Shown: piece by piece, positions 22,308 through 38,767 of the stretch
Layout: every line of letters begins with the position of its first letter
Position numbering within the stretch: the first letter of the stretch is position 1
Source: an uncultured Anaerobiospirillum sp.
GTDB taxonomy: Bacteria; Pseudomonadota; Gammaproteobacteria; Enterobacterales; Succinivibrionaceae
Assembly (NCBI GenBank): GCA_944390115.1
Contig: CALXOW010000003.1
Span: forward strand, 50,773 to 114,772
Length of the DNA stretch: 64,000 nt
Reading direction: 5' to 3'
Made by a program: the position numbers and the translations under genes
The notes under the pieces: generated by a model
Told to the model about the DNA's origin: nothing
Database searches by the model: none
What the model saw: only the letters and a program-made list of their open reading frames with translations

Positions 22308-24182
22308 ATGCTGGCGCCCGCAAATGGAGAGAAGATTGTGCGCACAGATAAGCTGATATGTGAGGCCTTAAATTCAGCCCCCGCTCCGGCGCTGCCTGAG
22401 CTCTTGGCCGCCCGCCACCAAGCAGGCTTGGCGATTTTCGATGCTACGGGGCGCTATCGGCCAAGTGATGAGCCTTACCTCAATTGGCCCGGTAAAGCTC
22501 AAGCCTGGACTCAGGCTATCAGTCCTACTACGGCGCGCTGGGAAGAGAACTTGACGCAAGATGGGAACCATCTCTACCTTGAGGGCGATAACCTCTCTGT
22601 GCTCAAGCTCTTGCTGCCGCAGCTGCAAGGTAAGGTGCAAGTCGTTTACGCAGATCCACCTTATAACACGGGCAAGGACTTTGTTTACGCTGATAACTTC
22701 GTTTTAAGCTCCAGTGCTTATGAGCGCCGCTATGGCACGGCAGAGCGTTGCTACGGCGGCGCAGAGCCCTGTTCAGGTGCGGTTTCAGAGGCGGGGCGTT
22801 GGCATGCGCAGTGGTGCTCCTTTATTTATCCGCGCTTGCTGTTGGCTCGCGAGCTGATGGCTGAAAACGCCGTTATCTTCTTGTCCATTGATGACCATGA
22901 GTGCCACAACCTCAAGTTGATCTTAGATGAGGTCTTTGGCGCTGCGAACTTCGTCACTCAATTGGTGTGGCAGCGTGCCTATGCTGCTAAAAACGATACC
23001 AAGACAGTTCCGGTGAGCCACGACTATGTGCTGATGTATGCCAAGAACAAGACCTGCTGGGAAGAGGCAACTCAACCCAACCTCGGGCGGCAGCTCTTAC
23101 GACGTACCTTAGTTGGGGATAGCCAAGAAGGCACCCAAGAGCTCAAACGCCTCCTGCAAAAGGGCGTGTTCGATGGACCTAAGCCGGTACGCCTCATCAA
23201 GTACTTACTGGAGCTGGCCGGTGCGCCTAAGAACGGTATCGTGCTCGATTTCTTTGCTGGTTCAGCGACCACCGGTCAAGCGGTGCTCGAGCTTAACGCT
23301 GCCGATGGTGGTAGCCGCAGCTTTATCTTGGTGCAAGCTCCCGAGCCCTGTGCTGCTAAATCACCGGCATGTCGAGCTGGTTTTAGTGATATCGCCCAGA
23401 TTGGACTTGAGCGCCTGAACGCAGTCAGTGCCCAATTGCGAGCCTCGTCGGGCTTTCCAAGGTCAACTGCCTTGCTTGTGAACAAGTTTGATCATAATAA
23501 AGATGCTGTTGGGGGGGGGGGTATAGATCAAAATATATCTGTTAATAATTATGTTGGGCTGCCTAAACTGGGCATCAGGGTAGTGCACATCACGTCCGCT
23601 CCTAATCCTTCTAATGAATCCGAGCTCACTTTCAGGCCAGTAGAGCGTTACGAACTCTGCCTCCCCAATGCTGAAATGGCCCAGCCCCATATGTTCGCGA
23701 CAGGATTACAACTGGCCTATTGGGCATTGTCTGAGAAGGACGTGCACACGCTAAATGCGCAGCTGAGTACCATCAAGGCGCACTTGCTCAATCGCGGTGT
23801 ATGCTACCTACATTGTCCCAACGCTCAGGTTCTGGCGTGCGCGCATATTTGTGCTGATAACGTGCTGGGCGCAGATAATTTCATTGCGACCTTGGTCGAT
23901 GCCTCGCAGACGCAAATGCCATCCCAAGGACGCCGAGGGCGCAACCAAGCTGTTCCGCAAGAGCAGCTTGCTTACATCTTAATGTTAGCGCCTTTAAGCT
24001 TGGCCGTTTGCCTAGGACTGCGGCAGCCGATGGTCGTTCCCGCAATTACGACAATGACCCACGTGGCCCCTGGACCTCGGGCGACCTCTCGGTTAAGACT
24101 TATAAAGCTGAGTGCGATTATCCCATTACTACACCTTCAGGACGGGTGGTTAATCCGCCGCCGGGCTTATGCTGGCGCCTGA
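22308..24182 (+). CDS. Mod1: type III DNA-adenine methyltransferase lacking its recognition block, fused to a second Mod-like segment
   Basis: A beta-class N6-adenine methyltransferase: the region SWPGK-like, YLEGDNLSVLKLL, then DPPYNTG (motif IV, 116-122) precedes FFAGSATTGQAV (motif I, about 315-326). In ordinary type III Mod proteins roughly 100-130 residues of target recognition separate HDYVLMYAK from VGxxQE; here the two words are joined by only about 20 residues, so the recognition block is missing. After motif I comes an 11-G tract in frame, then a C-terminal domain (LGIRVVHI) that runs into a second Mod-like stretch (CYLHCPN..ICADNVLGADNFIATLV). From about 23990 the homology moves to another frame (next entry). 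The start may also be GTG 22338, which has GGAGAG before it. Last 60 residues in this frame look like out-of-frame translation. Confidence 0.8.
   Translation: MLAPANGEKIVRTDKLICEALNSAPAPALPELLAARHQAGLAIFDATGRYRPSDEPYLNWPGKAQAWTQAISPTTARWEENLTQDGNHLYLEGDNLSVLKLLLPQLQGKVQVVYADPPYNTGKDFVYADNFVLSSSAYERRYGTAERCYGGAEPCSGAVSEAGRWHAQWCSFIYPRLLLARELMAENAVIFLSIDDHECHNLKLILDEVFGAANFVTQLVWQRAYAAKNDTKTVPVSHDYVLMYAKNKTCWEEATQPNLGRQLLRRTLVGDSQEGTQELKRLLQKGVFDGPKPVRLIKYLLELAGAPKNGIVLDFFAGSATTGQAVLELNAADGGSRSFILVQAPEPCAAKSPACRAGFSDIAQIGLERLNAVSAQLRASSGFPRSTALLVNKFDHNKDAVGGGGIDQNISVNNYVGLPKLGIRVVHITSAPNPSNESELTFRPVERYELCLPNAEMAQPHMFATGLQLAYWALSEKDVHTLNAQLSTIKAHLLNRGVCYLHCPNAQVLACAHICADNVLGADNFIATLVDASQTQMPSQGRRGRNQAVPQEQLAYILMLAPLSLAVCLGLRQPMVVPAITTMTHVAPGPRATSRLRLIKLSAIIPLLHLQDGWLIRRRAYAGA
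23511..23521 (+). repeat. Poly-G tract G11 in Mod1
   Basis: Eleven consecutive G bases, read as four glycines in the current frame (AVGGGGID). Such tracts slip during replication and switch genes on and off. With 11 G the downstream C-terminal domain is in frame; 10 or 12 G would end the protein early. Confidence 0.9.
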
Positions 24183-24520
24183 CGCGTAAAGGCTTGGAGC
24201 GGGCGCTCAGCGAGCAGCGCATCTGGTTTGGTGCCAATGGTAATAATCGGCCGCGTCTTAAGCGCTTCTTAAGTGAGCTCAAGCACGAGGGCATGGTGCC
24301 TTTATCCTTGATTTTGCCTGAGAACTTGCAGGAGGCATCAAGCCCAGAACTAGGCCTGGCCACGCGCCTTATTCATATGGCCAATTTGGACCAAGCAAAG
24401 CACAGTGCGACCTGCTTGTTGTTAGGAGATAGGGAGCGTTGTGCCGTTATGGCACAAGTCTTATCAAGTAGCCAGGTTGCAACCCAATACCAGCCACAGA
24501 TCTTGTGGCCGCAGCACTAA
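24008..24520 (+). pseudogene. Target-recognition segment displaced behind Mod1, out of frame
   Basis: This frame encodes the recognition block absent from Mod1: PRTAAADGRSRNYDNDPRGPW, SVKTYKAECDYPITTPSGR, then RIWFGANGNNRPRLKRFLSEL, followed by a ruined motif I (CLLLGDRERCAVMAQ). It is closely related to Mod4 and Mod5. The matching upstream part lies in the Mod1 frame, so one base has been lost or two gained near 23990 (after YILMLA). This frame is closed upstream by TAA at 23876-23878, so changing the G-tract alone cannot restore it. It has no good start codon or ribosome-binding site of its own. It may be inactive in this copy or joined in other strains. Confidence 0.7.
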
Positions 24521-24637
24521 GAAAAGCATTTGCCAAAAGCCCAAATTGGCGTTAAATGCCGGAAGCATGGGGATTTGAGGAAGAGCTTCCGGCGCATAAT
24601 TGTGGTATCTTCCGGTCTCAGTCAATGAGGTCACGAT

Positions 24638-26587
24638 ATGCAAGCTGCGCAAGTTTACCGTTCGAAGTCTGAAGATACGATGCCTATCTTGCAGGAGGTA
24701 GGCTCAAAGTCGGGTGCCCAGCTCACTGCCCGCAATATCTTGCGTTTAGCCCAGCTTTTTCCTGATTGCGTACAGGTCTCAGCGCAGCAAGAGTTTACGG
24801 TCGATGTGCCGCGACTGTTTGCTCACTTAGGTGTAAATGCCCATGCTGAGCCCATAGCGCTCGGGCTTAAGAGCGAGCGCTTTGAGCTGAGCTGGCCGGG
24901 GAAGGCCGCTGCCCGGCGCAGCGCCATGGTGCCCTTAGATCCGGTACGCTTGAGCTTAGATGAGGAGCGCAGCCTTGAGGTAGCGCAGACGAAAAATCTG
25001 TTCTTTGAGGGTGATAACCTCACGGTACTCAAGCTCCTCCAATCCAGTTATCAATGCGCTATCAAGTTCGTGTATTTGGATCCTCCTTATAACTCCGGTA
25101 GTGGGGAGTTGGTCTATCACGACAAATTTCGCACGCGCAAAGAACGCTTAGGGCCTGATGACAGCGGTCATGTCCATGGACCGTGGTGCTCGATGATCTA
25201 TCAGCGCCTGCTCCTGGTGCGTCAACTGATCGCCGCCAACGGCGCTATTTTCGCCTCGATTGATGAGCGTGAGTATGCCAATTTGCGTCAGATTATGGAC
25301 GAAGTAATGGGGGCGGCCAACTTCGTCAGCACCTTGGTCTGGAAAAAGAAGCAGGGTGGCTCCAATGACTCAGGTTATGTGGTCACCGACCACGAGTACA
25401 TCCTGGTCTATGCCAAGGACATAACGCAGGTCGACCTGGGCTTAGACTTGGGGGCCATGCCTGAGGTGCGCGACTACAATTACTGCGATGAGCATGGGCG
25501 CTACAACCTCATTACTTTAGATAAGTCCTCGATCCGTTTTAGTCCGGCCTTGGTGTATGACATCGTAGGCCCGGATGGTACGGTCTATCGCCCGCGTCTG
25601 ATTAAGGGCAAGCAGTCGTGCTGGCGCTGGAGCGCCGAGCATGTGGCCAAGGACTACGACCAATTGGTGTTCAAGGACGGTAAGGTCTATACCAAAAATT
25701 ACCTCAAGCAAGGAGAAAAGCCGCGTAGCCTCTTAATTGACTCGGAGCGCTTTGGCCGTACCAGCTTTGGCAAGGCTGACTTACAAGAGCTCTTTGCCTG
25801 CTGTCCCTTTAGCTATCCTAAGCCAGTACGCCTCATCTCCTATCTCATCGGCCTGATGCAAGGCACAGACTTCACGGTCCTGGACCTCTTTGCCGGTTCG
25901 GGCACCACCGCACAAGCAGTTATGGAATGCAATGCCAAGGATGGCGGTACGCGCAAATTCATTCTGGTCCAGCGTCCCGAGCCGCTTACTGCCAAGGGCA
26001 TGAGTGCTGACCTTAATTGCAGCACTTTGAGCGAGCTTGCGATCGAGCGTATTCGCCGTGCCGGGCTAAAACTAAGTTGTTGCACCAAAACTGTGCGGGG
26101 AGGGGGTACGCAATTTTGGGCGGATAAACCTGATGTTTACGCCGAAAATAGTGGGCCAAACGATCTGTTGTCTGGCCTGGAGGTTCCGCCTGAATTGCCT
26201 CAAGATAGGGCAAATTTAGACCTTGGCGTACGGGTCTTAAGCTTAGAGCGCAGTGCTCAGTCTGAGCTATCTCAGCTCTTTACGGTTCTGGCGCAGCTAG
26301 ACTTGCCCTTTGATTGGAGCTTTGAGCGCAAGGAGCAGGGCGGGTTTACGGTTTACGATTACGGTCATGGGGCTGTGTTGGTCTGTCTTGAGCCCAAGCT
26401 CAGCGATAGTCTGCTCGCGGCCTTGGCTAGCTCCACGCAAGAACCTCATTACCTCATCTTGCGCCAGGACGCCTTTGTCACTGAGCAAGAGCGCCATGAT
26501 TATCTGGAGCTGTGCGCGGTACTCTTGCCGCATACACAGGTACAGTTGGTGGCAGCAGAGTCGCATAGCTCGCGCGAAGCGACCTAA
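24638..26587 (+). CDS. mod: Mod2: complete type III DNA-adenine methyltransferase
   Basis: A 649-residue Mod subunit with all parts in the normal order: ELSWPGKAAAR and FFEGDNLTVLKLL, DPPYNSG (148-154), HEYILVYAKD, a central recognition region of about 150 residues (NYCDEHGRYNLITLDKSS..., a different recognition type from Mod4/Mod5), YPKPVRLI, FAGSGTTAQAV (418-428) and a C-terminal domain (LDLGVRVLSLE). It should methylate adenine on one strand of an asymmetric site and supply specificity to Res. At the place where Mod1 and Mod3 have poly-G, Mod2 has G4AG5 in frame. GAGG lies about ten bases before ATG 24638. Spacing to Mod3 suggests one operon. Confidence 0.88.
   Translation: MQAAQVYRSKSEDTMPILQEVGSKSGAQLTARNILRLAQLFPDCVQVSAQQEFTVDVPRLFAHLGVNAHAEPIALGLKSERFELSWPGKAAARRSAMVPLDPVRLSLDEERSLEVAQTKNLFFEGDNLTVLKLLQSSYQCAIKFVYLDPPYNSGSGELVYHDKFRTRKERLGPDDSGHVHGPWCSMIYQRLLLVRQLIAANGAIFASIDEREYANLRQIMDEVMGAANFVSTLVWKKKQGGSNDSGYVVTDHEYILVYAKDITQVDLGLDLGAMPEVRDYNYCDEHGRYNLITLDKSSIRFSPALVYDIVGPDGTVYRPRLIKGKQSCWRWSAEHVAKDYDQLVFKDGKVYTKNYLKQGEKPRSLLIDSERFGRTSFGKADLQELFACCPFSYPKPVRLISYLIGLMQGTDFTVLDLFAGSGTTAQAVMECNAKDGGTRKFILVQRPEPLTAKGMSADLNCSTLSELAIERIRRAGLKLSCCTKTVRGGGTQFWADKPDVYAENSGPNDLLSGLEVPPELPQDRANLDLGVRVLSLERSAQSELSQLFTVLAQLDLPFDWSFERKEQGGFTVYDYGHGAVLVCLEPKLSDSLLAALASSTQEPHYLILRQDAFVTEQERHDYLELCAVLLPHTQVQLVAAESHSSREAT
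26097..26106 (+). repeat. Interrupted poly-G (G4AG5) in Mod2
   Basis: The motif GCGGGGAGGGGGTAC sits at the position homologous to the G9 tract of Mod3: both follow TGCACCAAAA and GTGCG and both read ...GGGT in the open frame. The A interrupts the run and should stop slippage, leaving Mod2 permanently in frame. Confidence 0.7.
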
Positions 26588-26652
26588 AAGTGTACACTCG
26601 CTGCTTGGGAGAAAAATCACAGTTTTTTGCAAAAAGTTATTGCGAGGACAGC

Positions 26653-27906
26653 ATGCCGCCATTATCACTGCGCTCACCCAGCGGGACTGAGATTATCCGA
26701 ACACGCTTGCTCAAGCGTCTGCACGAGTGTATGGCGGCACAGCCCCAGTCCGCAGCCGATCTAGGCGGCATTAGTGCCGAGAACTTAGCTCAAGCCTTGG
26801 GGCTCAGCTCCCAAGAGCAGAAACCACAAGCCGTACTGAGCTGGCCGGGTAAGCGTGAGGCACTGCAAAAGGCGCTGGAGCCCTGCCTCAAAACGTTCCA
26901 GCCGCGTCCTGAGTTGAGCTGGGGGAGCTTCAGTGAAAACCTGTACCTTGAAGGCGATAACCTCGAGGTCTTAAAGCTCCTGGGCTTAAGCTACAACTGC
27001 GCAGTTAAGGTTATCTACATTGACCCGCCTTACAACACGGGCAAGGACTTCGTTTACAACGACAATTTCACCCAAAGTCGCGATGATTATGAGGTCAGTG
27101 CTGGTGTGCGTTCTCAGGACGCAGACAACTTAAGTCTACGGCTGCGCACCAACAAGGAGACGGATGGCCGCTATCACTCCAATTGGTGCTCGCTCATTTA
27201 TCCGCGCTTGCTGCTGGCTCGTCAGCTCTTGCGTGACGATGGCGTTATCTTCATTTCGATTGACGACTATGAGCAGCACAACCTCAAGCTCATCTGTGAT
27301 GAAATCTTTGGAGCGGCCAACTTGGTCACGCAATTGGTGTGGCAGCGCGCCTACTCGCCCAAGAATGACGCTAAGTTTGTCTCCACGAGCCATGACTACG
27401 TATTGATGTACGCCTACGATAAGGTGGCGTTTGAGTAAGCCTTAAGCGCCCAAGGCTTAAGTTGCGATTTTAGTCAGGGGCAGCTGCTCAAATATGACCA
27501 GGTGGGTCATAGCCAAGAGGGCACCCAAGAGCTCAAGGAGCTGCTGCATGAGGGCGTGTTTGATGGTCCTAAGCCGGTACGCCTGATCAAGCATTTGCTC
27601 AATCTGTCCGGTCTTAAGGCTGATGGCCGCGAGTTGGTGCTCGACTTCTTCTCGGGCTCTGCTACTACCGCGCAAGCGGTCATGGAGCTTAATGCCGCCG
27701 ATGGCGGCACGCGCCGTTTTATCATGGTGCAGCTGCCTGAAGCCTGCAATGAAAAGAAGCGTGCTACGCACGACTTTGCCACGATTTGCGATATTGGTCG
27801 GGCTCGCATTCGCGCCGTGGCCGCGAAAATTGCCACCCAGCTAAACTGGGCCTTACCTCCGCTTAATTTGCACCAAAATAGTGCGAAAAAAGGGGGGGGG
27901 TACTGA
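26653..27906 (+). pseudogene. Mod3: recognition-less methyltransferase with an in-frame TAA and an OFF poly-G tract
   Basis: A second catalytic-type Mod closely resembling Mod1: YLEGDNLEVLKLL, DPPYNTGKDF (124-133), LVWQRAYSPKNDAKF, HDYVLMYAYDK, then VGHSQEGTQELKELL, FDGPKPVRLI and FFSGSATTAQAV. As in Mod1 the central recognition block is absent. In the short joint, TAA at 27436-27438 interrupts the frame (VAFE-stop-ALSAQG), but the same frame continues with full homology to 27906. There the A6G9 tract leads to GGGY and a TGA stop. Eight or eleven G would join the C-terminal domain of the next entry. ATG 26653 has GAGG upstream. Whether the TAA is real decides if any Mod3 is made. Confidence 0.75.
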
Positions 27907-28459
27907 TGATGTCAACGCATCCTCGAAGCCGATAACTAAGCCGTTTGCTCAAGATATAATTTCTGCCCAAAATGGTGCAAATGCGCTACTTGAGACCTCT
28001 CTTGATCTTGGTTTACAGGTTTTAGCGCTGGAGCAATTGCCGCCGCTCGAAGCGCGCCAGCTGTCATTAGCTGAGCTCCAAGCCCATGCTAAGGCTCATC
28101 AAGGCGAGCTGTTAGCGCCAGCCCCCATCGACCAAAATAACTTAGAGTACCAAGCTCCGGCGTGGCTGTATTGCGTGGCTGCGCAGCTTAAGCTGCCGCT
28201 CCATCTTACTATTAGCACCAAGTTGGTTGCAGGCTTTAAAGTCTGGTGTTACGGACCTGATCTGCTTTGGCTCTGTCCTCAAGGTAATTTAGTGCTTAGT
28301 CAAGCTTGGCTTGACGCGTTAGGTCAGGAGCCAACTTGGCCTCAATACTTTGCTCTGCGCGCTCGGGTCTTGCGCAAGTACCAGGACACTGAATTCTTAT
28401 TAGGCGAGCTTTTTAAGGCCATCACATTAGTGCCGCTCACCTCTGAGGAGGGCGCATGA
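27881..28459 (+). pseudogene. C-terminal domain of Mod3, disconnected by the poly-G tract
   Basis: The frame after the G9 tract encodes the Mod C-terminal domain: ...ETSLDLGLQVLALEQLPP, HLTISTKLVAGFKVW, LLWLCPQGNLVLSQ, with similarity to the end of Mod2. It reads KKGGGTDDVN across the tract, equivalent to VRGGGTQFW in Mod2. It is one base out of phase with the upstream part of Mod3. Its TGA stop overlaps the ATGATG start of Mod4, so translation is probably coupled when the tract is in the ON state. Confidence 0.65.
27892..27900 (+). repeat. Poly-G tract G9 (preceded by A6) in Mod3
   Basis: Six A then nine G bases, ending the current frame at TAC TGA. Loss of one G or gain of two (G8 or G11) would put the C-terminal domain in frame. 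Mod1, which is in frame at its tract, has G11, consistent with a shared ON length. Confidence 0.9.
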
Positions 28460-30072
28460 TGGCTGTGCTAGCAAATGAACTCATCGCCGCTTTTCCTGAT
28501 TGTGTGACTGCTGATGGCTCCTTGGATTTGGCCAAGTTAACAGGAGCACTGGAGACGGGAATTGATGGGCAGCATAGTGCAAACGCGGTCTTAGAGGCTG
28601 AAATCGAGAGTTATGAGCTCACCTGGTCCACCAAGGCCCAAACCAAGCAGGAAGTGCGACGCGACGCAGGCTTAACCTTAGCCCCGGTCAATGGCACTGA
28701 GAGTTCTTTTGCCCAGGCCCGTAACTTGGTCATTGCAGGTGACCAAGTGTCGGCGCTTAAGGTCTTGCAGCGCCCGGTACTGGGTATGGGCGGGGTTAAG
28801 GCGGTGTACTGTCATTTGAGCCCGGACTTAGACCAATGCTATGCCACGCTCAGTTTAGTGCGGCCGTTATTGCGTGATGACGGTTGCTGCTTTGTTTTCT
28901 GCGATGATGCCGCCGCCTTAGCTTATCAGCGCAAGCTCTGCGATGAGGTCTTAGGCAGTAATAATTTCCTTGCGACCTTGGTGTGGCAGCCCGATGAGAG
29001 AGCGTCACTTAAGTACATTCTGCTCTATGCGCGCGCCAATTATGACTTCACTATTGGTCTGTTACCACGTACGGCTGAAGCTAATCAGCGCTACAAAAAT
29101 CCCGACAACGACCCGCGCGGTTTATGGCAGTCTGACAATCTTTCAGTTAAGACCTATTCTCGGAGCTGTGATTACCCTATAACTACACCTGCTGGTCGAG
29201 TAGTTAATCCACCAAAAGGATCGTGCTGGCGCTTAAGCAAGGAAAGCTTTGCGCGGGCGGTAGCTGATAACCGCATTTGGTTTGGTGCCGATGGCAATAA
29301 TGTACCAAGAATCAAGCGCTTTTTGTCTGAGGTTAAAGATGGTTTAGTACCTACCTCAATCTTATTGCCTAAGGAAATGGGCTCATTAGCAGCTACGCAA
29401 GCTGAGCAGGGGGCTGAGCTTACCCTTACCGCTGCATTGGCTCAGCACTTATTGACTCTGGCCAATCTCACTACGAAGGCTGATGCTGACCCCAATGATG
29501 TCGTGCTGCTGCTGGGTGAGTGTTCTGCTTGTGCGCAAATGGCGACAAGCCTGACCGCACTCAATCTGGAGCGTGAGGCTCAGTACCGCTTTATCTGGCT
29601 TGCCTCTGATCAAGGTTTAACTTGGCTTTATGACTTACAGCGCGCGCGGGAGCTTACTGCGCCTGCGTTGCGTCGTCTGGAGCTGGTGTCTAATGCGCGT
29701 GCGCATGTGGCCGTACCTCTTAACTCATATCGCCAAGATATGTTATGGGCTTTACTTGAGACCCCACAACATGATGCGCTCGCCCAACTCTATGCCTATT
29801 TGGTTGAGAGCGGCAAGGACTTGAGTGCTCGCATTGAGCGTTTGGAGCTCGGGAGGTATCAGCTGCTCAACTATGACCACAACCACATCTGGTTTTGTGC
29901 CGAGCCTGACATCGATGTGGAGCTTATTCGTGCTGTGGCGTCTTGCCCCCAAGAGCAGCGCCCACAGCGCTTGTTATGCTCCGAGGATAGCTTTGCTTCG
30001 GATAGCGCCAAAATCAATTGCTGTGAGCATGCGGCGCTGCTGTTAGGGCCTGACGTTTTGACCATCGTTTAG
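28456..30072 (+). CDS. Mod4: catalytically dead Mod paralogue carrying a target-recognition block
   Basis: A 538-residue Mod relative. The fold order is kept: ELTWSTKAQTK, NLVIAGDQVSALKVLQ, LLRDDGCCFVFCDD, CDEVLGSNNFLATLVW, YILLYARANYDF. But motif IV DPPY is HLSP (120-123), and motif I FAGSATT is LGECSAC (about 353-359), so neither methyl transfer nor AdoMet binding is expected. The recognition block is intact at about 213-300 (YKNPDNDPRGLW, YPITTPAGR, RIWFGADGNNVPRIKRFLSEV). A 180-residue C-terminal domain follows. Its start overlaps the end of Mod3. I infer a specificity subunit that dimerises with Mod1, Mod2 or Mod3. The alternative is a decaying copy, but the long intact frame argues against it. 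Confidence 0.8.
   Translation: MMAVLANELIAAFPDCVTADGSLDLAKLTGALETGIDGQHSANAVLEAEIESYELTWSTKAQTKQEVRRDAGLTLAPVNGTESSFAQARNLVIAGDQVSALKVLQRPVLGMGGVKAVYCHLSPDLDQCYATLSLVRPLLRDDGCCFVFCDDAAALAYQRKLCDEVLGSNNFLATLVWQPDERASLKYILLYARANYDFTIGLLPRTAEANQRYKNPDNDPRGLWQSDNLSVKTYSRSCDYPITTPAGRVVNPPKGSCWRLSKESFARAVADNRIWFGADGNNVPRIKRFLSEVKDGLVPTSILLPKEMGSLAATQAEQGAELTLTAALAQHLLTLANLTTKADADPNDVVLLLGECSACAQMATSLTALNLEREAQYRFIWLASDQGLTWLYDLQRARELTAPALRRLELVSNARAHVAVPLNSYRQDMLWALLETPQHDALAQLYAYLVESGKDLSARIERLELGRYQLLNYDHNHIWFCAEPDIDVELIRAVASCPQEQRPQRLLCSEDSFASDSAKINCCEHAALLLGPDVLTIV
28612..29050 (+). repeat. Mod4 copy of a 439-bp near-identical duplication
   Basis: This segment is almost identical to 30240-30678 in Mod5 (constant offset 1,628 bases), covering the dead catalytic part. 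Identity drops in the recognition and C-terminal regions, as in diversifying specificity genes. The identity should allow recombination between the copies. Confidence 0.85.
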
Positions 30073-30092
30073 TAGGAAAGGATAAGTTAGCA

Positions 30093-31670
30093 ATGACTGT
30101 TGCAAGTACCAATTCGAGCTTGCTGTACGAGCTGGCTTTAGCCTTCCCTGAGGGGCTCGCTGGGCAAGGTACATTTTGCTTAGATCAGAGAGCGGGGGAT
30201 GTTGCAGTAGAGCTTCCGTCACAGGTGGAGCCGGAGCACTATGAGCTCACCTGGTCCACCAAGGCGCAAACCAAGCAGGAAGTGCGACGCGATGCAGGCT
30301 TAACCTTAGCCCCAGTCAATGGCTCTGAGAGTTCTTTTGCCCAGGCCCGTAACTTGGTCATTGCAGGTGACCAAGTGTCGGCGCTTAAGGTCTTACAGCG
30401 CCCGGTACTGGGTATGGGCGGGGTTAAGGCGGTGTATTGCCATTTGAGCTCTGATTTAGACCAATGTTATGCCACGCTCAGTTTAGTGCGGCCGTTACTG
30501 CGTGATGACGGCTGCTGCTTTGTTTTCTGCGATGATGCTGCCGCTTTGGCTTATCAGCGCAAGCTCTGCGATGAGGTCTTAGGCAGTAACAATTTCCTTG
30601 CGACCTTGGTGTGGCAACCCGATGAAAGGGCGCCACTTAAGTACATCCTGCTCTATGCGCGCGCCAATTACGATTTCTCTATTGGGCGCTTACCGCGTAC
30701 TGCCAAGACCGATGAACGCTACAAGAATCCTGACAATGACCCGCGTGGTCCATGGACGTCAAGCGATATCTCGGTTAAGACTTACAGCGCATCATGCGAT
30801 TATCCTATCACCACGCCTTCGGGGCGGCAGGTTTGGCCCGCTAAAGGGCGCGCTTGGAGTTTGAGTAAGGAGAGCTTGGCGCGGGCGCTGGCCGATAATC
30901 GCATTTGGTTCGGTGCTGATGGCAATAATACGCCGCGTTTAAAGCGCTTTTTGTCTGAGGTCAAAGAGGGTCTGGTGCCTACCTCGATTCTCTTGCCGGA
31001 GGAAATGGGCTCATTAGCACGCGAGCCGGGGCTTACCTCGGCTTTAGCTCTGCGTCTGTTGATTCTGGCCAATCTCAGCGTACAAGCTGACGCTCAGTCC
31101 GATGATGCCGTGCTGCTGGTAGGCGCGGGAGCGGACTGTGCTCAAATGGCGACGGCCCTGAGTGGGCTCAATCAAGAGCGCGGGACTCAATACCGCTTTA
31201 TCTGGCTGTCCTCGCCTGAGAGCTTAACCGAGCTTGATGAGCTCCACCGGGCCCGAGACCTTTCTATGCCTACGCTGCGCCAGCTTAAGTTGGTGCCCAG
31301 CGCGCATTGGGCGCTGCCGCTTAGTGCCTATAGTCAAGAGTTGCTGGTAACCTTAGTTGAGGCACCAGCTGGTGATGCGCTCGCTCGGTTCTATGCCTAT
31401 TTGGTGGCTACGGGTAAGGACTTAAGCGCTCCTATCGAGTGCTTAGAGCTTAAGGGCTATCAGCTGCTCAACTACGCTCAGAACCAAATCTGGTTTTGTG
31501 CTGAACCTGGGATTGGGGTTGAGCTTATTTATGCGGTGGCAACGGGGCATAAGCGGCCCCAGCAGCTCATCTGCCCTGATGCCTGTTTTGCTACTGATAG
31601 CGCCAAAATTAACTGTTGTGAGCATGCCACTATGCTCTTAGGCCCGGAAGTTTTAGTCGTTGTGTCGTAG
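30093..31670 (+). CDS. Mod5: second catalytically dead Mod paralogue with a different recognition block
   Basis: A 525-residue paralogue of Mod4. The N-terminal 40 residues differ, then about 145 residues are almost the same, including HLSS (117-120) in place of DPPY. The recognition block (YKNPDNDPRGPW, SASCDYPITTPSGRQVWPAKGRAWSL, RIWFGADGNNTPRLKRFLSEV) differs from Mod4 mainly in the middle (QVWPAKGRAW against VVNPPKGSCW), suggesting another DNA target. Motif I is replaced by VGAGADC. The end resembles Mod4. A 20-base gap separates it from Mod4 and an 8-base gap from Res, so all are in one operon. Function as a specificity partner is inference. Confidence 0.8.
   Translation: MTVASTNSSLLYELALAFPEGLAGQGTFCLDQRAGDVAVELPSQVEPEHYELTWSTKAQTKQEVRRDAGLTLAPVNGSESSFAQARNLVIAGDQVSALKVLQRPVLGMGGVKAVYCHLSSDLDQCYATLSLVRPLLRDDGCCFVFCDDAAALAYQRKLCDEVLGSNNFLATLVWQPDERAPLKYILLYARANYDFSIGRLPRTAKTDERYKNPDNDPRGPWTSSDISVKTYSASCDYPITTPSGRQVWPAKGRAWSLSKESLARALADNRIWFGADGNNTPRLKRFLSEVKEGLVPTSILLPEEMGSLAREPGLTSALALRLLILANLSVQADAQSDDAVLLVGAGADCAQMATALSGLNQERGTQYRFIWLSSPESLTELDELHRARDLSMPTLRQLKLVPSAHWALPLSAYSQELLVTLVEAPAGDALARFYAYLVATGKDLSAPIECLELKGYQLLNYAQNQIWFCAEPGIGVELIYAVATGHKRPQQLICPDACFATDSAKINCCEHATMLLGPEVLVVVS
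30240..30678 (+). repeat. Mod5 copy of the 439-bp duplication
   Basis: Near-identical partner of 28612-29050. The conserved part covers the degenerate catalytic half and stops just before the recognition block. Confidence 0.85.
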
Positions 31671-31678
31671 GTGGTGCC

Positions 31679-34600
31679 ATGCAAAATCTTCAATTTAAGC
31701 AACAAGCTTTTCAGCAAGAGGCGGCACAGGCCGTGGTCGATGTCTTCTTAGGGCAGCCTAAGCTTGCAGACTCCTTTGCCCTGGAAAATATGGGCAGCTA
31801 CGTGCCGAACGCACCCATTAGCCTGAGCCCAGAGCAGCTCTTGGCGCACATCAATGCACGCCAAAGTAAGGCACACCTTGAGCTTACGCATGATCTGTCC
31901 GATGTGTACAATCTCTCCATTGAGATGGAGACGGGCGTGGGCAAGACCTACACCTACATCAAGACTATTCATGAGCTGTGCGCTCACTACGGCTGGCGCA
32001 AGTTCATTATCGTGGTGCCGTCGGTCGCGGTGCGCGAAGGCGTCATGAAGAGCTTTGAGAGCACGCGTGCGCACTTTTTGGAGCTCTATCCTGAGCAGCG
32101 CTTGCACGCTTTCGTTTACAACTCCGAGCAAACTGCCGATATTGCTGCTTTTGCCTCCTCGCTCGACATTGAGGTCATGATCATCAATGTCCAGGCTTTT
32201 AATGTAAAGCTCAAGCTCGACGAGATTGAGGCGCAAGAGCGTGCCGTTGAGCAAGGCTTGACGGTCTCGGGCAATGACTCGGGCGACTTGCGTCGTATGT
32301 TTCGTCGCCTTGATAGCCTGCAATCGCAGCGCATGATCGATGTCTTAGCTCAGACCAATCCTATTGTCATTATCGATGAGCCTCAGTCTGTCGAAGGCGC
32401 ATCGGCCAGTGTCAATGCCCGCCAGAATCTGCCGTACTTCAACCCGCTCTTTACCTTGCGTTACTCGGCGACTCACCGCAAGGGCGATGAGCACAATATG
32501 CTGTTTAAGCTCGATGCACTGGACGCTTATAACCAGCAGCTGGTAAAGAAGATTACGGTTAAGGGTATCTCGGTTGCAGGCAACAAGTCCTCGTCTGCTT
32601 TTGTTTATTTAGAGCGCATCATTCTGTCGCCCGATGCCGCGCCGGTTGCGGTGGTGCATTTTAATCAGCTCAACCAGAATAACGCCCAGAATCCAGTACG
32701 CAAGGTGGTACGCAAGTTAGGTGCGGGCGCCGATCTCTATGCTGAGTCGGGTGGGATTGAGGCTTACCGCGATCGCTTTGTGCTCTCTGAAATTCGTGGC
32801 GATATTGATGCCATCGAACTGCTCAACGGTACCAAGCTTGCCGTAGGTGAGGCGATTGGTGCACTTGAAGATGATGCTTTGCGCCGGATTCAAATTCGTG
32901 AGACCATCTTGTCGCATTTAGAGCGCGAAAAGACCTTATTTGCCCAGAATATCAAGGTCTTGTCGCTGTTTTTCATCGATGAGGTCAAGCTCTACCGCGA
33001 ATATGGTGAGGACGGTGCGGCTCACAATGGACGTTATGCTCAGATGTTCGAGGAAGAGTACGCTGCGCTCAAAGACGAAATGATTGCGCAGTGTAAGGCT
33101 GAGTTACCACCTTTGGTCATGCAGGCTGGGAGCTATAGCGACCATGACCAAGGTCTGTTGCGCTATATCAAGTACTTGGAGTCTATTGACGTTGAACGCA
33201 CCCACTCGGGCTATTTCTCGATTGACAAGAAGAGCAATCAGCTTAAAGATCCTGAGGCGCCGAAGCGCGGTCAAGTTGGTTCAAGCGATGTCAGCGCCTA
33301 TGATCTGATCATGCGCTCTAAGGAGCGTCTGCTCGATTTAGATCCCGTGCGCAGCCCGGTGCGTTTTATCTTCTCGCACAGTGCCTTACGTGAGGGCTGG
33401 GACAATCCCAACGTGTTCCAAATCTGCACCCTCAAGCAAAGCTCCAGCGATATCAGAAAGCGCCAAGAAGTCGGACGAGGCCTACGTTTGTGCGTTAATA
33501 ACTTCGGCATACGCCAAGACAGCTCGGTCTTAGGCAGCATGGTGCACGACATTAACGTGCTCACCATTGTGGCCTCCGAAAGCTATGAGAGCTTTGCCCA
33601 AGGTCTCCAGCAAGAGTTGGTTGAGGAGCTCAATGGTGCACGCAGCGCTTTTGATGATAATTTCTTCAAGGGCCAATCATTGCGTGATAGTGCGGGCAAG
33701 GTCCATAAGGTCACTGCCGCTGAGGCCAAGAAGCTCAGCGCCCACTTGGTCGAGCAAGGCTACGTTGACAAGAAGGGCCAGTTAACCGCCAGCGGTCGCA
33801 CAGTGCTGGCCGCAGGTGAGCTTCAGGTGCCTGATACTTTGCCTAAACTTCAGGCTTGTGCTGCCGCCCTCAATGCGTTGCTCAAGCCTCAAGCGCAGCT
33901 GCCACGTGAGCCCCGCCGCTCCGAGATTGTCTCCAATAGCCGTAAGCAAAAACGTTTACAGCCGAAGGCTGAGCTCATGCAAAGCCGCGAGTTCAAGGAG
34001 CTATGGCAACGTATTAGCCCTAAGACTATCTACTCGGTTGACTTTGACTCGAGCGAGTTGGTGCGCGCGGCGGTAAGCCAGATTGATCAGCATTTGCAGG
34101 TCAATCAGCTCATCTACACCGTGGAGCAAGGCTCGATGGCGGCGGGGATGAAGAAGAAAGCTTTGGAGCAGGGCGCTGCCTTCAAGGACGAGAAGAGTAA
34201 GGTCATAACCGAGGGCATGTTGACCAAGACCGTCACGCCCGGAGCAGCCAGCTCTACCCCTTATGATTTAGTGGGACGCTTGGTCGAGCTTACCAAGCTC
34301 ACGCGCCGCACCATTGTGGCTATCTTGCAGCACATCCGCACAGATAAGTTTGACTTGTTCAAGCGCAATCCTGAGGAGTTCATCGTCAAGGTGGCTAAAC
34401 TCATCAACGAAGCCAAGTCCCAGACTATCGTGGCACATATCAGCTATAACTTGATTGATGAGCGCTATGATCAGAGCATCTTCTACGACAACTCCCCGGT
34501 GCTTGCGAGCATCTTAACCGAGGCAAAAAAGCACCTGTACTCTGGTATCGCTTGTGACTCTCAGGTCGAGCAAAAGCTGGCCTCTGACTTAGATCATTCC

Positions 34601-34882
34601 GATCAAGTCTGCTTTTACATCAAGCTACCGAAGGTCTTTAGCATCCGCACCCCGCTGGGCAATTACAGCCCAGACTGGGCCATCGTCTTTAAAGAGGACA
34701 GCGGTATCAAGCATTGCTATTTTGTGGCCGAAACCAAGGGCAATCTCAGTTCCTTGGCGTTACGCCCCGTCGAGCAAGGCAAGATTGCGTGTGCGCAAAA
34801 GCATTTTGAGGCCTTAGGACCAGATGTCACTTACCACGCTATCACCAGCTTTAGTGAGCTGATGCAGCTAGTTACCGCTTAA
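31679..34882 (+). CDS. res: Type III restriction subunit Res (DEAD-family helicase plus nuclease)
   Basis: A 1,067-residue Res subunit. It has the superfamily 2 motor: METGVGKTYT (Walker A, about 83-92), IIDEPQSV (DExx box, about 231-238), SATHR (motif III, about 262), and QEVGRGLRL (motif VI, about 595-603). The C-terminal endonuclease domain shows the PD-(D/E)XK pattern with PDW near residue 999 and AETKG near 1020. In known type III systems Res binds a Mod dimer, slides along DNA after ATP hydrolysis and cuts when two complexes meet. It is the last gene of the operon, eight bases after Mod5, and looks intact, so unmethylated targets should be attacked whenever a compatible Mod pair is made. 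Confidence 0.93.
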   Translation: MQNLQFKQQAFQQEAAQAVVDVFLGQPKLADSFALENMGSYVPNAPISLSPEQLLAHINARQSKAHLELTHDLSDVYNLSIEMETGVGKTYTYIKTIHELCAHYGWRKFIIVVPSVAVREGVMKSFESTRAHFLELYPEQRLHAFVYNSEQTADIAAFASSLDIEVMIINVQAFNVKLKLDEIEAQERAVEQGLTVSGNDSGDLRRMFRRLDSLQSQRMIDVLAQTNPIVIIDEPQSVEGASASVNARQNLPYFNPLFTLRYSATHRKGDEHNMLFKLDALDAYNQQLVKKITVKGISVAGNKSSSAFVYLERIILSPDAAPVAVVHFNQLNQNNAQNPVRKVVRKLGAGADLYAESGGIEAYRDRFVLSEIRGDIDAIELLNGTKLAVGEAIGALEDDALRRIQIRETILSHLEREKTLFAQNIKVLSLFFIDEVKLYREYGEDGAAHNGRYAQMFEEEYAALKDEMIAQCKAELPPLVMQAGSYSDHDQGLLRYIKYLESIDVERTHSGYFSIDKKSNQLKDPEAPKRGQVGSSDVSAYDLIMRSKERLLDLDPVRSPVRFIFSHSALREGWDNPNVFQICTLKQSSSDIRKRQEVGRGLRLCVNNFGIRQDSSVLGSMVHDINVLTIVASESYESFAQGLQQELVEELNGARSAFDDNFFKGQSLRDSAGKVHKVTAAEAKKLSAHLVEQGYVDKKGQLTASGRTVLAAGELQVPDTLPKLQACAAALNALLKPQAQLPREPRRSEIVSNSRKQKRLQPKAELMQSREFKELWQRISPKTIYSVDFDSSELVRAAVSQIDQHLQVNQLIYTVEQGSMAAGMKKKALEQGAAFKDEKSKVITEGMLTKTVTPGAASSTPYDLVGRLVELTKLTRRTIVAILQHIRTDKFDLFKRNPEEFIVKVAKLINEAKSQTIVAHISYNLIDERYDQSIFYDNSPVLASILTEAKKHLYSGIACDSQVEQKLASDLDHSDQVCFYIKLPKVFSIRTPLGNYSPDWAIVFKEDSGIKHCYFVAETKGNLSSLALRPVEQGKIACAQKHFEALGPDVTYHAITSFSELMQLVTA

Positions 34883-35033: not shown

Positions 35034-36719
35034 CTACTTGCGGGCGCGGCGTTGCGCCTTGCGCTGCTTGCGCACGCTTTTGAGGTAACGCTTGTTGAGC
35101 TTGCGCTCCAAATGACGCTTCTGGCACTTGTCCAGGGACTGAGGCGCGGGCGCTGGGACATCATCAGCAGCAGCGTCGTCGTCATCCTCCTCGTCCTCGT
35201 CGTCAGGCTCATCATCCGCATCGTCCTCGATCGGGGCAAAGGCCGGATCGAGTGCCCAATCGGCAGTGTCTGCAACGGCGCGCTGAGATTCAGTCTCGGA
35301 CTGAACCAAATCTGGAGCGAGCGCGGCTGGTTCTGCTAAGGAAGTCTCTTGGGGAGCTACCTGCGCTTGAGGGTCGAGCGAAGCGGGAGCTTCGGGCGCG
35401 ACCTCAGCTGAGGAAGCGGCGGAAGCAGCGTTTTGGGGCGCTGTGGCCGCCGCAACCGGGGCGGGCGCTTCAGGTGCGGCCGCAACCTGCGGCTCACTAC
35501 CAGGTGCAGCTGAGGCTGTCACTCCAGCCTCAGATGTGGCGCCTGGCGCGGGGTCAAACTCCGCAAGTTGCAGCAGGTCGTACTGCTGAGGCTGAACTTG
35601 AGCCTTAGTCGTGCGGCTCTTGCGCGTTACCGTAGAGGCTGTAGCCGTCGTGGCTGCCTTCTTGGTGCTCTTGCGAGCCTTGGTTGGGCGCTTGCCCTTA
35701 GGGGTGAGCAGGGTGGCCTTAAGGTACTGGTGAATATCACCGTTGGCGGCCTTAAAGCCTTCTGGGTCCAACATCGCAAGCGGTGCGAAGTCCTCAGGCA
35801 GGCCTTGCCCCAAATCCATGACGTCGTCCAAGAAGCCCTTAGCACTCTGGCTTAAGCTGTGCTGGAGCTTGAGCAGGTAGGGTTTTGAGTCCTTGGCATT
35901 GAAGTTGGTGATCGTCAGGCTCAGATCGTCGATCACGAGGCGAATGCCCTCAGAAAAGAGGGGACGGATCTCTTGGAGCGCGTTATAGGCGAGCTTGGCA
36001 TGCTCGGCCTTAGGACGCTCCGGCAACTCACAGGTGAGGAAGTCGAGGCAGGCAGCTGGGGGCGTATCCCAAGCGTGCTCGTTTTCTCGGAGCAGGTCCT
36101 GCACAAACGCCTCATCGCGGTGCTGCACCAGGGCCATCAGATGCTTGGGGTTAAATTGGTTGAGGTGCTCACGCTGGCTTTGGTAAAAGCCTTTGTCTAA
36201 GCCCAGCGGGGCAAACAGGGCATCGCGCAGCTCATTGGCGATCACCTCGCGCTTGCTGAGCTTGAGTATCTCCAAGTAGCGGGCGGCGGCCAAGTTGGTT
36301 TCTTGGGCCAGTGGCTTGAACTTTAGGACAATGGTGCTGCCATCGTCGTTGGTGATGGTCTGCACGGTTGGGGTGCGCGCGGTCTTTTTGAGGGCCGTCA
36401 GTCCTGGTCCCTTGATCACGGAGGTGGCAAAGATGCGCTCGCGTGCCGACTCAGAGAGCACTGGGATGGCGTCGCGTCCAGCGGCGACCGCATGGTACTG
36501 AGCGCAGACGCCATGGGTGGCGTGGCCTTGTTGGCGCAGCTTGGCTGCTTGACGCTGGGCGCGCTGCTGGGCCTTGAGAGCCACTAAGACCGTGGCATCT
36601 TGAGCCGCCTCGTGCTCGCCCGTGAGGGGCTTCATTGGGGGCACGTTAGGCGCCGCGTCGTGGGAGGCTTGAGGCTCAGGATTGAGTGGGGTCGGGGTGA
36701 AATTCGACTCGGATGACAT
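35034..36719 (-). CDS. Uncharacterised 561-residue protein with acidic and basic tails
   Basis: Minus-strand gene from MSSESNFTP (ATG 36719, GAGGACAAAATT before it) to a very basic end (KRHLERKLNKRYLKSVRKQRKAQRRARK-like; basic from about residue 530). I recognise no family. Residues about 50-340 look globular and helical, about 350-480 are alanine- and proline-rich, and about 490-515 are an acidic run of D and E. There is no signal peptide. The acidic-then-basic ending is typical of RNA- or nucleic-acid-binding tails. The next gene upstream on the same strand, the TpsB-like transporter, ends 31 bases before this start, so both may share a transcript. A functional link is not evident. Confidence 0.6.
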   Translation of the reverse strand: MSSESNFTPTPLNPEPQASHDAAPNVPPMKPLTGEHEAAQDATVLVALKAQQRAQRQAAKLRQQGHATHGVCAQYHAVAAGRDAIPVLSESARERIFATSVIKGPGLTALKKTARTPTVQTITNDDGSTIVLKFKPLAQETNLAAARYLEILKLSKREVIANELRDALFAPLGLDKGFYQSQREHLNQFNPKHLMALVQHRDEAFVQDLLRENEHAWDTPPAACLDFLTCELPERPKAEHAKLAYNALQEIRPLFSEGIRLVIDDLSLTITNFNAKDSKPYLLKLQHSLSQSAKGFLDDVMDLGQGLPEDFAPLAMLDPEGFKAANGDIHQYLKATLLTPKGKRPTKARKSTKKAATTATASTVTRKSRTTKAQVQPQQYDLLQLAEFDPAPGATSEAGVTASAAPGSEPQVAAAPEAPAPVAAATAPQNAASAASSAEVAPEAPASLDPQAQVAPQETSLAEPAALAPDLVQSETESQRAVADTADWALDPAFAPIEDDADDEPDDEDEEDDDDAAADDVPAPAPQSLDKCQKRHLERKLNKRYLKSVRKQRKAQRRARK

Positions 36720-36750
36720 AATTTTGTCCTCTGGTTGGTTAGAAGGTGTG

Positions 36751-38703
36751 TTAGAAGGTGAAACTGAGAGCAAAGGAGATACGGCCTTCCTTTGCGGCAT
36801 AGTTCGGGCTCTTGCCGATGCCGTGACTTAAGTCGAGCTCGGCATTGAGGCCGTGGCCGTGGTAGCTCAGGGTGATACCGGCGCTGGCGCCACTGTCACT
36901 TGAGTAGATGCGGTCATAGACCTTGGCGTACTCAAAATGCGGGCTTAAGGTCAGCTCTTCGTAGCTGTCATAGCTGCGGGTGCTGTCGGTGGTGCCGTGC
37001 GTGGTGCGCTCATTGGTGTAGAGGCGCAAGTTGAGCGCGTTGCTCCAGACGATGCCGCTATCGCCCACTAAGGCTGAGCTGGAGTAGGCACGCAGGCCCC
37101 GGCTACCGCCTGCTTGCATCTGCTCGGAGCTATCGAGCGCGGTGTTGGCAAATTGCAGCGTAAGGCCCGTGCTGTAGCTCACGGTGTCGCTCCACCACTG
37201 GTTAAAGCCGAGCTCGACGTTGGCTAAGAAGAAGTTCTTTTCCTCAGTCAGCTCAAACTCGTCATCGCAGTACATGGCGCCATAGGAGAGGCGGCCGCGA
37301 TAGGAAAAGACGGTGTGATCTTCAGGGTAGGACTTGTAGCCCGAGAGCTCGGTGTAGCCTGCGATGGAGTGCTTTTGAAACTCGAGATCAAAGGCGCTGA
37401 ACTCATCGGTCAAGTCGCGATAGCGCAGGCCGCTGCGCCACATAGTCTTAGCCGTAGCGCTGCGGTAGATCGGCTCCTTGAGGTAGAGCTCGCCGTTGTA
37501 CTCGTGGCCCTTAGCTCCTAAGACCTCATAGGCTTGGCTCAGCTCGTAATTGCTATAGCAAAAGTCCAGGCCCAAGACCGTCGGGTGCGAGTTGATTGGC
37601 AGCTCGTAGGTCAGGCTGTAATTGTTTTGCTGCTCGTTGGTGCGGGCGTAAAAGAACGCTAAGCGGTCGGCACTGCCGGTGACGTTGATGAAGTCGGCCA
37701 TGGCACCAAAGCGATAGCGCCCTGAGCTCTCGGTGCCTTCGTTATCGGCAAAGAGCGAGAACTCAAAGTTATCGCGCTGGGGTGCGGCGACCAAATCAAG
37801 ATCGTGGTGTAAACCGTGAACATCGGTGGCGCTAAACTCACCACTTAAGGAAAAGATGCCGAGGTCAGTGAGCTTGAGCAGCTGGTTATTGAGCTTTTCA
37901 TGCTCAATGGGCAGGCCCACTTGCTCCTCAATGCCTCCTAATAAGTACTTGAGGTAGCTATCACGGACGCCTGAGGTGTTCTCAGTGGAAACGCCATTTA
38001 AGGTTGGCGCGGCCACCACCATCGAGAGCACGCCGTCATCGACTGCCTGCACTGGGAAGTAGGCTTGCGCTCCGATAAAGCCTTGGTCACGGTAGTAGCG
38101 CGTGACCTCGCTTAAGGCCCGCTGCAAGAGCGCGGCGCTCACCGCACGCCCACCTAAGGCCGCAAGCTTGTCTTGCGCGCCCTGAGTTAAAGCAGCGTGC
38201 TCAGGCTCGGTCAGGTATGGCGCGGCGATGAGCTTAATGCCATTTAAGGTGCGCGTCTGCTGCTGCGCCCCGGCATAAGCAGCCGAGGCCTGAGCGTTGC
38301 GCGTGAAGGCACGAGCCCGCGTACCAGCCGGAACCTGAGTGGTCGCTGCGCTGGTGGAGGCGGTCAGCTGCGCCTCAGGGGCGGCACTAAGGTGCGTGCT
38401 CTGAGCAGCGCTACTGCGGATCCTGCTTTGAGTGGCACTATTGCTCTGAGCGGTGTGGCCTGCATTAGAGCTGGCACTGAGGTCGGCGCTTGGGGCTGGG
38501 GACAGCGTGACCTTTTGGTCCACGATGGTGAACTTGCTGCGGGCCTGGGCTACAGCTGCTGGGATTGCGGCTTGGACGGCGCTGGGCTCAGCAGGCACCG
38601 AGTGCGTGCTGGTGCTGTCTGCTTGGACAGCGCCGGACAAGACCGCAGTGACGAGCAAGGCGGCCATGGCGTGACCGAGCTTGCTAACGGCGGAAAGATT
38701 CAT
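36751..38703 (-). CDS. Outer-membrane TpsB transporter (ShlB/FhaC/HecB family)
   Basis: A 650-residue precursor with a Sec signal (MNLSAVSKLGHAMAALLVTAVLSGAVQA). A low-complexity A/S/T/Q segment follows to about residue 150, then POTRA-type periplasmic domains (NGIKLIAAPYLTEPE..., RYYRDQGFIGAQAYFP, GVLSMVV) and a C-terminal 16-strand barrel ending in SFALSFTF with the terminal phenylalanine of outer-membrane proteins. GGSRGLRAY corresponds to the conserved VRGY/F loop of the Omp85-TpsB family. Such proteins export a large TpsA partner, usually encoded beside them. None is present here; the downstream gene lacks a signal peptide. AAGGAACC precedes ATG 38703. A terminator-like hairpin lies in the leader. 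Confidence 0.85.
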   Translation of the reverse strand: MNLSAVSKLGHAMAALLVTAVLSGAVQADSTSTHSVPAEPSAVQAAIPAAVAQARSKFTIVDQKVTLSPAPSADLSASSNAGHTAQSNSATQSRIRSSAAQSTHLSAAPEAQLTASTSAATTQVPAGTRARAFTRNAQASAAYAGAQQQTRTLNGIKLIAAPYLTEPEHAALTQGAQDKLAALGGRAVSAALLQRALSEVTRYYRDQGFIGAQAYFPVQAVDDGVLSMVVAAPTLNGVSTENTSGVRDSYLKYLLGGIEEQVGLPIEHEKLNNQLLKLTDLGIFSLSGEFSATDVHGLHHDLDLVAAPQRDNFEFSLFADNEGTESSGRYRFGAMADFINVTGSADRLAFFYARTNEQQNNYSLTYELPINSHPTVLGLDFCYSNYELSQAYEVLGAKGHEYNGELYLKEPIYRSATAKTMWRSGLRYRDLTDEFSAFDLEFQKHSIAGYTELSGYKSYPEDHTVFSYRGRLSYGAMYCDDEFELTEEKNFFLANVELGFNQWWSDTVSYSTGLTLQFANTALDSSEQMQAGGSRGLRAYSSSALVGDSGIVWSNALNLRLYTNERTTHGTTDSTRSYDSYEELTLSPHFEYAKVYDRIYSSDSGASAGITLSYHGHGLNAELDLSHGIGKSPNYAAKEGRISFALSFTF

Positions 38704-38735
38704 GAAAGGTTCCTTTAAAAAGTTCCAGAAACAAA

Positions 38736-38767
38736 AACGCCGTAACATCAGATGACGTTACGGCGTT
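38736..38767 (-). terminator. Terminator-shaped hairpin in the leader of the TpsB gene
   Basis: AACGCCGTAAC (38736-38746) and GTTACGGCGTT (38757-38767) form a perfect 11-bp stem; on the minus strand it is followed by TTTTTGT. It lies only 33 bases upstream of the TpsB start codon, and no minus-strand gene precedes it. It could be an attenuator controlling that gene. Confidence 0.6.

Follow-up and report, generated by a model that had tools for sequence, protein, structure and literature searches.

The structure of EcoP15I led to the proposal that one beta-class methyltransferase subunit reads the DNA and the other writes the methyl group, which is hard to test in homodimers, whose subunits are identical. 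Can the two jobs be carried by different genes? The question is raised by a locus on the forward strand of a 64-kb stretch of DNA (hereafter the window; 64,000 nucleotides of contig C3, CALXOW010000003.1) from the genome of an uncultured Anaerobiospirillum species (G000; a draft of 3.64 Mb with a completeness of 92.85%). At positions 22308-34882, as was seen in an earlier reading of this DNA made from its letters alone (the sequence-only reading), one gene for a restriction subunit (Res) is preceded by five genes related to modification methylases (Mod1 to Mod5). We conclude that part of this type III restriction-modification (R-M) system has probably replaced the Mod homodimer by asymmetric heterodimers or single-chain pseudo-dimers, which would fix the EcoP15I division of labour. 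The conclusion draws on observed complementary losses, conservation, a natural fusion, purifying selection, and the positions and frames of poly-G tracts.

Complementary losses among the Mod paralogues

Passages of PMC4490356 describe ModA of EcoP15I as reading the site with its target recognition domain (TRD; residues 263-384) and ModB as methylating it; a subunit relies on the TRD of its partner, and the geometry bars one subunit from doing both. The catalytic half of Mod1 and Mod3 carry DPPYNTG together with FFAGSATT (Mod1) or FFSGSATT (Mod3), and the Pfam family N6_N4_Mtase was matched in Mod1, Mod2 and the first part of Mod3. When aligned with L118, an ordinary Mod of the genus, Mod1 and Mod3 lacked the DNDPRG...KRFLSE block, which bears out what the sequence-only reading had noticed: HDYVLMYA runs straight into VGDSQEGTQ in Mod1 and is followed by VGHSQEGTQ in Mod3. 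The same alignment gave HDYxLMxA to VGxSQEGTxE without a TRD for Mod1, Mod3 and their relatives in two other species, G005 (locus L114) and G009 (locus L122). Five genes have the TRD-less junction as one contiguous stretch, namely Mod1 and Mod3 of the window, Mod1 and Mod3 of G005, and Mod1 of G009. In a search of solved structures, Mod1 matched the EcoP15I Mod at 52-253 and 386-503 only, and the skipped stretch corresponds to the EcoP15I TRD.

Mod4 and Mod5 retain the DNDPRG...KRFLSE block, with HLSP or HLSS in place of DPPY and LGECSAC or VGAGADC in place of the S-adenosylmethionine (SAM) motif, exactly as first read, and a Pfam scan of Mod4, Mod5 and the Mod1 TRD segment matched no family. 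Compared to L118, 47 residues starting at DPPY are deleted from both, and the loop aligned to EcoP15I residues 231-233 is deleted as well (residue numbers counted from alignments); according to passages of PMC4490356, the thymine left unpaired across from the flipped adenine is stabilised by Asn232 and Asn233 of ModB. Conservation was assessed against 55 ordinary Mods, which were the rows other than Mod4 and Mod5, picked by DPPY-like and SAM motifs from loci of the genome collection, two of them from the same genus. Of the 15 TRD columns that are invariant in this set, Mod4 and Mod5 retain all, whereas of the 17 invariant core columns before the TRD each retains 4 and, of the four after it, Mod4 retains none and Mod5 one. 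At 95% conservation, the dead Mods keep 22/23 columns in the TRD, 10/28 in the core before it and 1/6 in the core after it. In Mod4 and Mod5, the losses fall on the catalytic parts and not on the recognition part. A profile of the C-terminal domain (CTD) of the ordinary Mods matched Mod4 (E 2.9e-15; search of three sequences) and gave no match to the C-terminal part of Mod3; Mod5 aligned along its length in the alignment of the dead Mods. A predicted model of Mod4 (pLDDT 86.5) matched the EcoP15I Mod in 4zcf with Foldseek TM values of 0.72 for chain A and 0.55 for chain B, the latter inferred to be ModB from modelled residues that start before 13.

Substitution patterns argue that the dead methylase scaffold is under purifying selection. 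Mod4 and Mod5 share 97% identity in the scaffold, 79% in the TRD and 29% in the N-terminal 50 residues (42 aligned codons). In the dead methylase region (140 codons) they differ by 20 synonymous and 5 nonsynonymous changes (dN/dS 0.065), a synonymous bias with a Fisher p of 4e-10 (site counts back-calculated from rounded rates); the TRD has 56 synonymous and 42 nonsynonymous differences. Between G000 and G005, dN/dS was 0.115 for Mod4, 0.146 for the Mod1 catalytic half and 0.079 for the Mod1 TRD segment, compared to 0.143 for Mod2 and 0.093 for Res, all rough values, since cross-species dS is near saturation. For a non-catalytic scaffold, such constraint best fits a structural role.

The locus belongs to type III R-M by its Res and Mod2. 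Res matched PF04851 and PF19778 above their cut-offs, which gives it the helicase and endonuclease of a type III subunit, and it matched the NCBIfam type III endonuclease model with an E of 9e-98, yet under the curated cut-off (328 vs 564 bits). Mod2 has the motif order of a beta-class Mod (DPPY, inserted TRD, FxGS SAM motif) and is complete, as the sequence-only reading had stated. The TRD and the catalytic motifs are found on the same Mod in Mod2 and not in Mod3, Mod4 or Mod5; the fused Mod1 of the relatives has both, but in separate halves. The genes from Mod2 to Res are tightly spaced: the stop of the Mod3 C-terminal part overlaps the Mod4 start in ATGA, and the gaps are 20 bases between Mod4 and Mod5 and 8 bases between Mod5 and Res.

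Table 1. Features of the locus, in window coordinates (ORF, open reading frame)
Feature	Position	Strand	Description
Mod1 catalytic half	22308..23510	+	N-terminal region plus methylase core (DPPYNTG, FFAGSATT); no TRD
G11 tract	23511..23521	+	Mod1 catalytic/recognition junction; frame open into the recognition half in this assembly
Mod1 recognition (dead) half	23522..24520	+	Mod4 homologue; frameshift between ~23985 and 24008; TRD block in ORF 24008-24520
Mod2	24638..26587	+	Complete beta-class Mod with its own, different TRD; counterparts in G005 and G009 (G009 copy cut by contig end)
Mod3 catalytic gene	26653..27891	+	No TRD; in-frame TAA at 27436-27438; G005 counterpart uninterrupted
G9 tract	27892..27900	+	Past the Mod3 methylase core; out of frame with the Mod3 C-terminal part here
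Mod3 C-terminal part	27901..28459	+	Divergent; no match to the ordinary-Mod CTD profile
Mod4	28456..30072	+	Recognition-only; retains TRD and CTD, lacks DPPY loop, orphan-base loop and SAM motif
Mod5	30093..31670	+	Second recognition-only Mod
Res	31679..34882	+	Type III restriction subunit; ResIII helicase and RE_endonuc domain

A natural fusion in two related species

Mod1 had been taken for a simple gene without a TRD, and this part of the sequence-only reading did not hold. Past its catalytic half, Mod1 continues into a half that resembles Mod4, with the TRD in a different frame (Table 1), and comparison with relatives identifies it as a frameshifted fusion of a catalytic and a recognition half that these relatives have intact. 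In G005, at the same chromosomal place, Mod1 is a single open frame of 769 aa with the motif order DPPY, SQEGTQE, FFAGSATT, then DPRG, IWFG and KRFLSE. It is followed by Mod2, a TRD-less Mod3 (443-aa open frame up to the tract), a dead Mod4 (548-aa open frame, 64% identity to Mod4 of the window) and Res. In G009 the fused Mod1 is intact in an 826-aa open frame and Mod2 runs off the contig, so that the locus beyond is unseen. An aldo/keto reductase gene adjoins Mod1 in all three genomes. Intact fusions at the same place in G005 and G009 indicate that the split is a conserved state and that Mod1 of the window is a frameshifted fusion. Full TRDs in Mod1 and Mod3 beside frameshifted Mod4 and Mod5 were not found in these relatives; the opposite was seen in G005 and, for Mod1, in G009.

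The fusion in G005 and G009 offers indirect support for a putative obligate heterodimer. Both fusions stop at the point aligned to Mod4 residue 384, ahead of the CTD. The core of the earlier proposal, that catalysis and recognition sit on separate Mods, is supported by the complementary losses, their match to the EcoP15I roles, the other species and the natural fusion. As first worded the proposal falls short, since Mod1 carries its own broken recognition half and Mod3 is interrupted. The C-terminal part of Mod3 (ORF 27881-28459) lies in another frame behind the G9 tract.

Among 57 genomes of the family, a junction profile (E 1e-8) found the contiguous junction in three only, the other listed matches covering part of it, and all three also encode a dead TRD module. 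Wider scans with this profile covered 369 genomes of the class (E 1e-15) and 398 of the phylum (E 1e-10), both being samples of larger groups with about ten first-look candidates scored per genome; among the matches listed, none outside G000 spans the junction fully, and the other partial matches were not each inspected. Two near-spanning matches, in G511 (positions 2-94) and G583 (38-130), were rejected as TRD-less Mods because their sequences contain TRDs. A motif scan of the genome collection covered 79 loci (the best 80 of 579 relatives), with DNDPRG-type TRDs and HDYxLxY anchors only and with the 10 relatives on viral contigs outside it; the sole row flagged, L068, proved to be a complete Mod that has an additional DPR motif. 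Matches in G011 (contig C24) and G021 (contig C26) run off their contigs. The TRD-less and dead modules co-occur with a Fisher p of 0.00014 in the family and 0.024 in the genus, related genomes being treated as independent; the test scores G011 and G021 as lacking dead Mods and is hence not taken as proof. The best tree takes two changes to account for the TRD-less Mods. In G008, a dead TRD Mod (672-aa open frame) lies directly before a complete Mod (812-aa open frame). The dead TRD Mod at L120 5355-9792 has a G11 tract near its N-terminus, and its open frame adjoins that of a complete Mod; it may represent an intermediate stage or a different use of such Mods.

Poly-G tracts behind the methylase core

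On the forward strand, the 64-kb window has just two runs of at least 7 G, the G11 tract of Mod1 and the G9 tract of Mod3, and no run of at least 7 C. In 60 first-order Markov simulations, the expected number of G or C runs of at least 9 per window had a mean of 0.15. Both tracts occupy the same place in their genes, past the methylase core; the sequence-only reading had passed over them, as it had the Mod3 stop. On both strands of the window and 11 loci of the genus, 24 tracts of at least 7 G were counted, and 18 of these lie at this post-core junction. One frame was open for at least 158 residues behind every one of the 18, and 34 of the 36 alternative frames ended no more than 25 codons from the tract start. 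The downstream segments matched the CTD profile of the 55 ordinary Mods in 15 of 18 cases (E 2.4e-7 or better; 18-sequence search); those without a match were Mod1 of the window, where the dead half follows, and Mod3 of the window and of G005. Five of the 18 tracts were in the long frame and 13 were not, close to the one third expected for free length. These are coding repeat tracts whose length sets the frame, as in phasevarions, seen here in one assembly per species. The fusions of G005 and G009 have no tract of at least 7 G.

Like the phasevarion genes modA, modH and modS, these mod genes have simple repeats and predicted switching by slippage. In the passages available on known phase-variable mod genes, slippage turns Mod expression off, and the modS tract lies at the 5' end. 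Here, unlike in those genes, the tract lies past the methylase core, and an ordinary Mod that is out of frame would be shortened to its N-terminal region, methylase and TRD, without the part that docks Res, since the CTD of ModA makes extensive contact with Res in EcoP15I (passages of PMC4490356). Such a loss would uncouple restriction from modification.

Mods with post-core tracts of 7-11 G, often in rows, were observed at L115, L116, L118, L119, L121 and L124 (14 tracts), with five such Mods within 12.7 kb at L116 alone, and this looks like a multi-Mod phase-variable system across much of the genus. The remaining six tracts comprise three upstream of Mods at L117, one at L123, one near the N-terminus of the dead Mod at L120, and one at L116 that sits outside any open frame. 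Those at L117 (8301, 10746 and 13275) lie about 40 bases and that at L123 (6116) about 80 bases upstream of Mod open frames (stop-to-stop), which suggests switching of a promoter or leader type in G003 and G004.

Proposed pairing and competing explanations

The Mod1 N-terminal half and Mod3 retain only the features of ModB, and Mod4, Mod5 and the Mod1 C-terminal half only those of ModA. In the proposed working, for which dimerisation, activity, specificity, Res docking and reversible switching are inferred, a TRD-less catalytic Mod would pair with a dead recognition Mod, which would select the DNA site. Neither kind suffices alone, a TRD-less Mod being unable to read DNA and a dead Mod unable to methylate; a heterodimer that combines them would reconstitute a complete enzyme, and the fused protein would be that enzyme in one chain, with both jobs. 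Mod4, with its recognisable CTD, and probably Mod5 could dock Res. The fused Mod1 is probably a modification-only enzyme, since it ends ahead of the CTD, and Mod2 would act as a conventional Mod. Poly-G slippage would set the translation of the recognition half in Mod1, or of the C-terminal part in Mod3 and the ordinary Mods of the genus. In G000 the intact set consists only of the Mod1 catalytic half, Mod2, Mod4, Mod5 and Res, which makes action of the Mod1 catalytic half in trans with Mod4 or Mod5 the first pairing to consider there.

A wider scheme, to which we give somewhat less than an even chance, would be a mix-and-match system of TRD-less Mods, interchangeable dead Mods for specificity and Res docking, and single-chain pseudo-dimers, with poly-G tracts switching the recognition half or the CTD. 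If it is true, one Res could serve several specificities and restriction could be separable from modification, with the methylase itself never removed.

Several observations weigh against an asymmetric Mod pair. The TRD-less form was found in only three species and possibly has one or two origins, and the junction profile found no TRD-less partner in G008, so that dead Mods are not always accompanied. G000 has a frameshift in the Mod1 recognition half and a stop in Mod3, and unless these are assembly errors the locus there may be partly decayed. Constraint on the Mod1 dead half was looser, with dN/dS of 0.283 for its in-frame first part (G000 vs G005) and 0.232 for the whole half (G005 vs G009), and pn/ps for the Mod1 TRD segment was 0.36 with saturated dS (G000 vs G009). 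Gene conversion could inflate the similarity of Mod4 and Mod5, but not the synonymous bias of their differences. The preference of the Mod4 model for chain A stands without an ordinary-Mod control, and the catalytic model does not separate the chains (Foldseek TM 0.66 vs 0.67).

Arrays of paralogues easily yield broken copies, and the Mod1 frameshift and the Mod3 stop would fit a degenerating array in which duplication and domain loss left non-functional fragments, with only Mod2 and Res at work. We consider this unlikely: the identical complementary losses recur in intact long ORFs of two other species, dead scaffolds and TRDs are under purifying selection, and random decay would not keep all 15 invariant TRD columns while most core columns were lost. 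The gene pair of G008, a dead TRD Mod before a complete Mod with no TRD-less Mod found, would suit dead Mods that act as regulators or decoys, dimerising with complete Mods such as Mod2 and damping or redirecting methylation or restriction, with the TRD-less Mods an unrelated loss. However, dead and TRD-less modules occur together in G000, G005 and G009, the fusion joins exactly those two, and it is not obvious why a pure decoy should conserve its TRD, which makes this account improbable. Lastly, the odd copies might be storage cassettes for TRD shuffling by recombination within a conventional phasevarion array whose in-frame Mods are homodimeric. Several genomes of the genus have multi-Mod arrays with poly-G tracts, and Mod4 and Mod5 share a 300-nt block of 95% identity, which points that way; yet a TRD-less homodimer would be unable to read DNA under the EcoP15I scheme (passages of PMC4490356), and cassettes have no need of an ATGA overlap or of Shine-Dalgarno-like sequences at their start codons (read by eye), nor of fusion to a catalytic half. 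We hold the cassette account to be very improbable.

The proposed asymmetric pair resembles EcoP15I (Mod2Res1) in having a homologous Mod and Res with the same domain order, and the two roles in EcoP15I are the ones split here. It differs in that EcoP15I uses two copies of one product, whereas here each role has its own paralogue or its own half of a single chain. In type I R-M, HsdM provides catalysis and HsdS specificity, and exchangeable specificity subunits share a catalytic subunit; the modular logic is alike by analogy only. The specificity subunit here would be a dead Mod and not HsdS, no search of the window aimed at HsdS having been made. The m6A writers METTL3-METTL14 and, in ciliates, MTA1-MTA9 combine one active and one catalytically dead partner of the methylase fold. 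The locus likewise has one partner with catalytic motifs and another with the fold but with the motifs lost, judged from the motifs and the predicted Mod4 model. The likeness to METTL3-METTL14 is that of an active/dead pair, by analogy and not by kinship, and unlike that eukaryotic enzyme, which lies outside restriction and has no type III TRD, the dead partner here derives from a bacterial Mod. Structural matches to METTL3/14 were generic and found for both models, and a METTL14 preference among them was dropped because both models show it. Passages of the discussion in PMC4490356 raise the idea that RNA methylation in mammals may follow the same division of labour.

Neither a naturally split type III Mod nor an asymmetric Mod pair was found in open-access titles, abstracts and passages of PMC4490356, PMC6265453, PMC5149525, PMC8259958 and PMC8125046, REBASE not being covered; 'TRD-less' in the passages of PMC8125046 refers to an engineered antigen. 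Active/dead methylase pairs are known, and an asymmetric type III Mod pair appears undescribed in the literature covered. With each role stripped to one paralogue, nature appears to have run the experiment that homodimers make difficult. If the pairs work, the division of labour could be tested cleanly by genetics, METTL3-METTL14 would have a bacterial parallel, and there would be a type III enzyme whose specificity is exchangeable like that of type I. The position of the tracts raises the idea of a phase switch on recognition or on Res coupling, and not on the methylase.

The locus is bounded by the aldo/keto reductase gene on the Mod1 side and, past Res, by an ORF on the opposite strand (35034-36800) whose 588-aa product is repetitive-looking and matches no Pfam family. 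Next to it, also on the reverse strand (36751-38748), lies a gene for an outer-membrane secretion protein of the ShlB/FhaC type with a POTRA domain. The window also has T runs of 10 to 13 at 4382, 4885, 40979 and 44685, and the 13-T run lies about 130 bases past an exonuclease-like ORF that ends at 40851.

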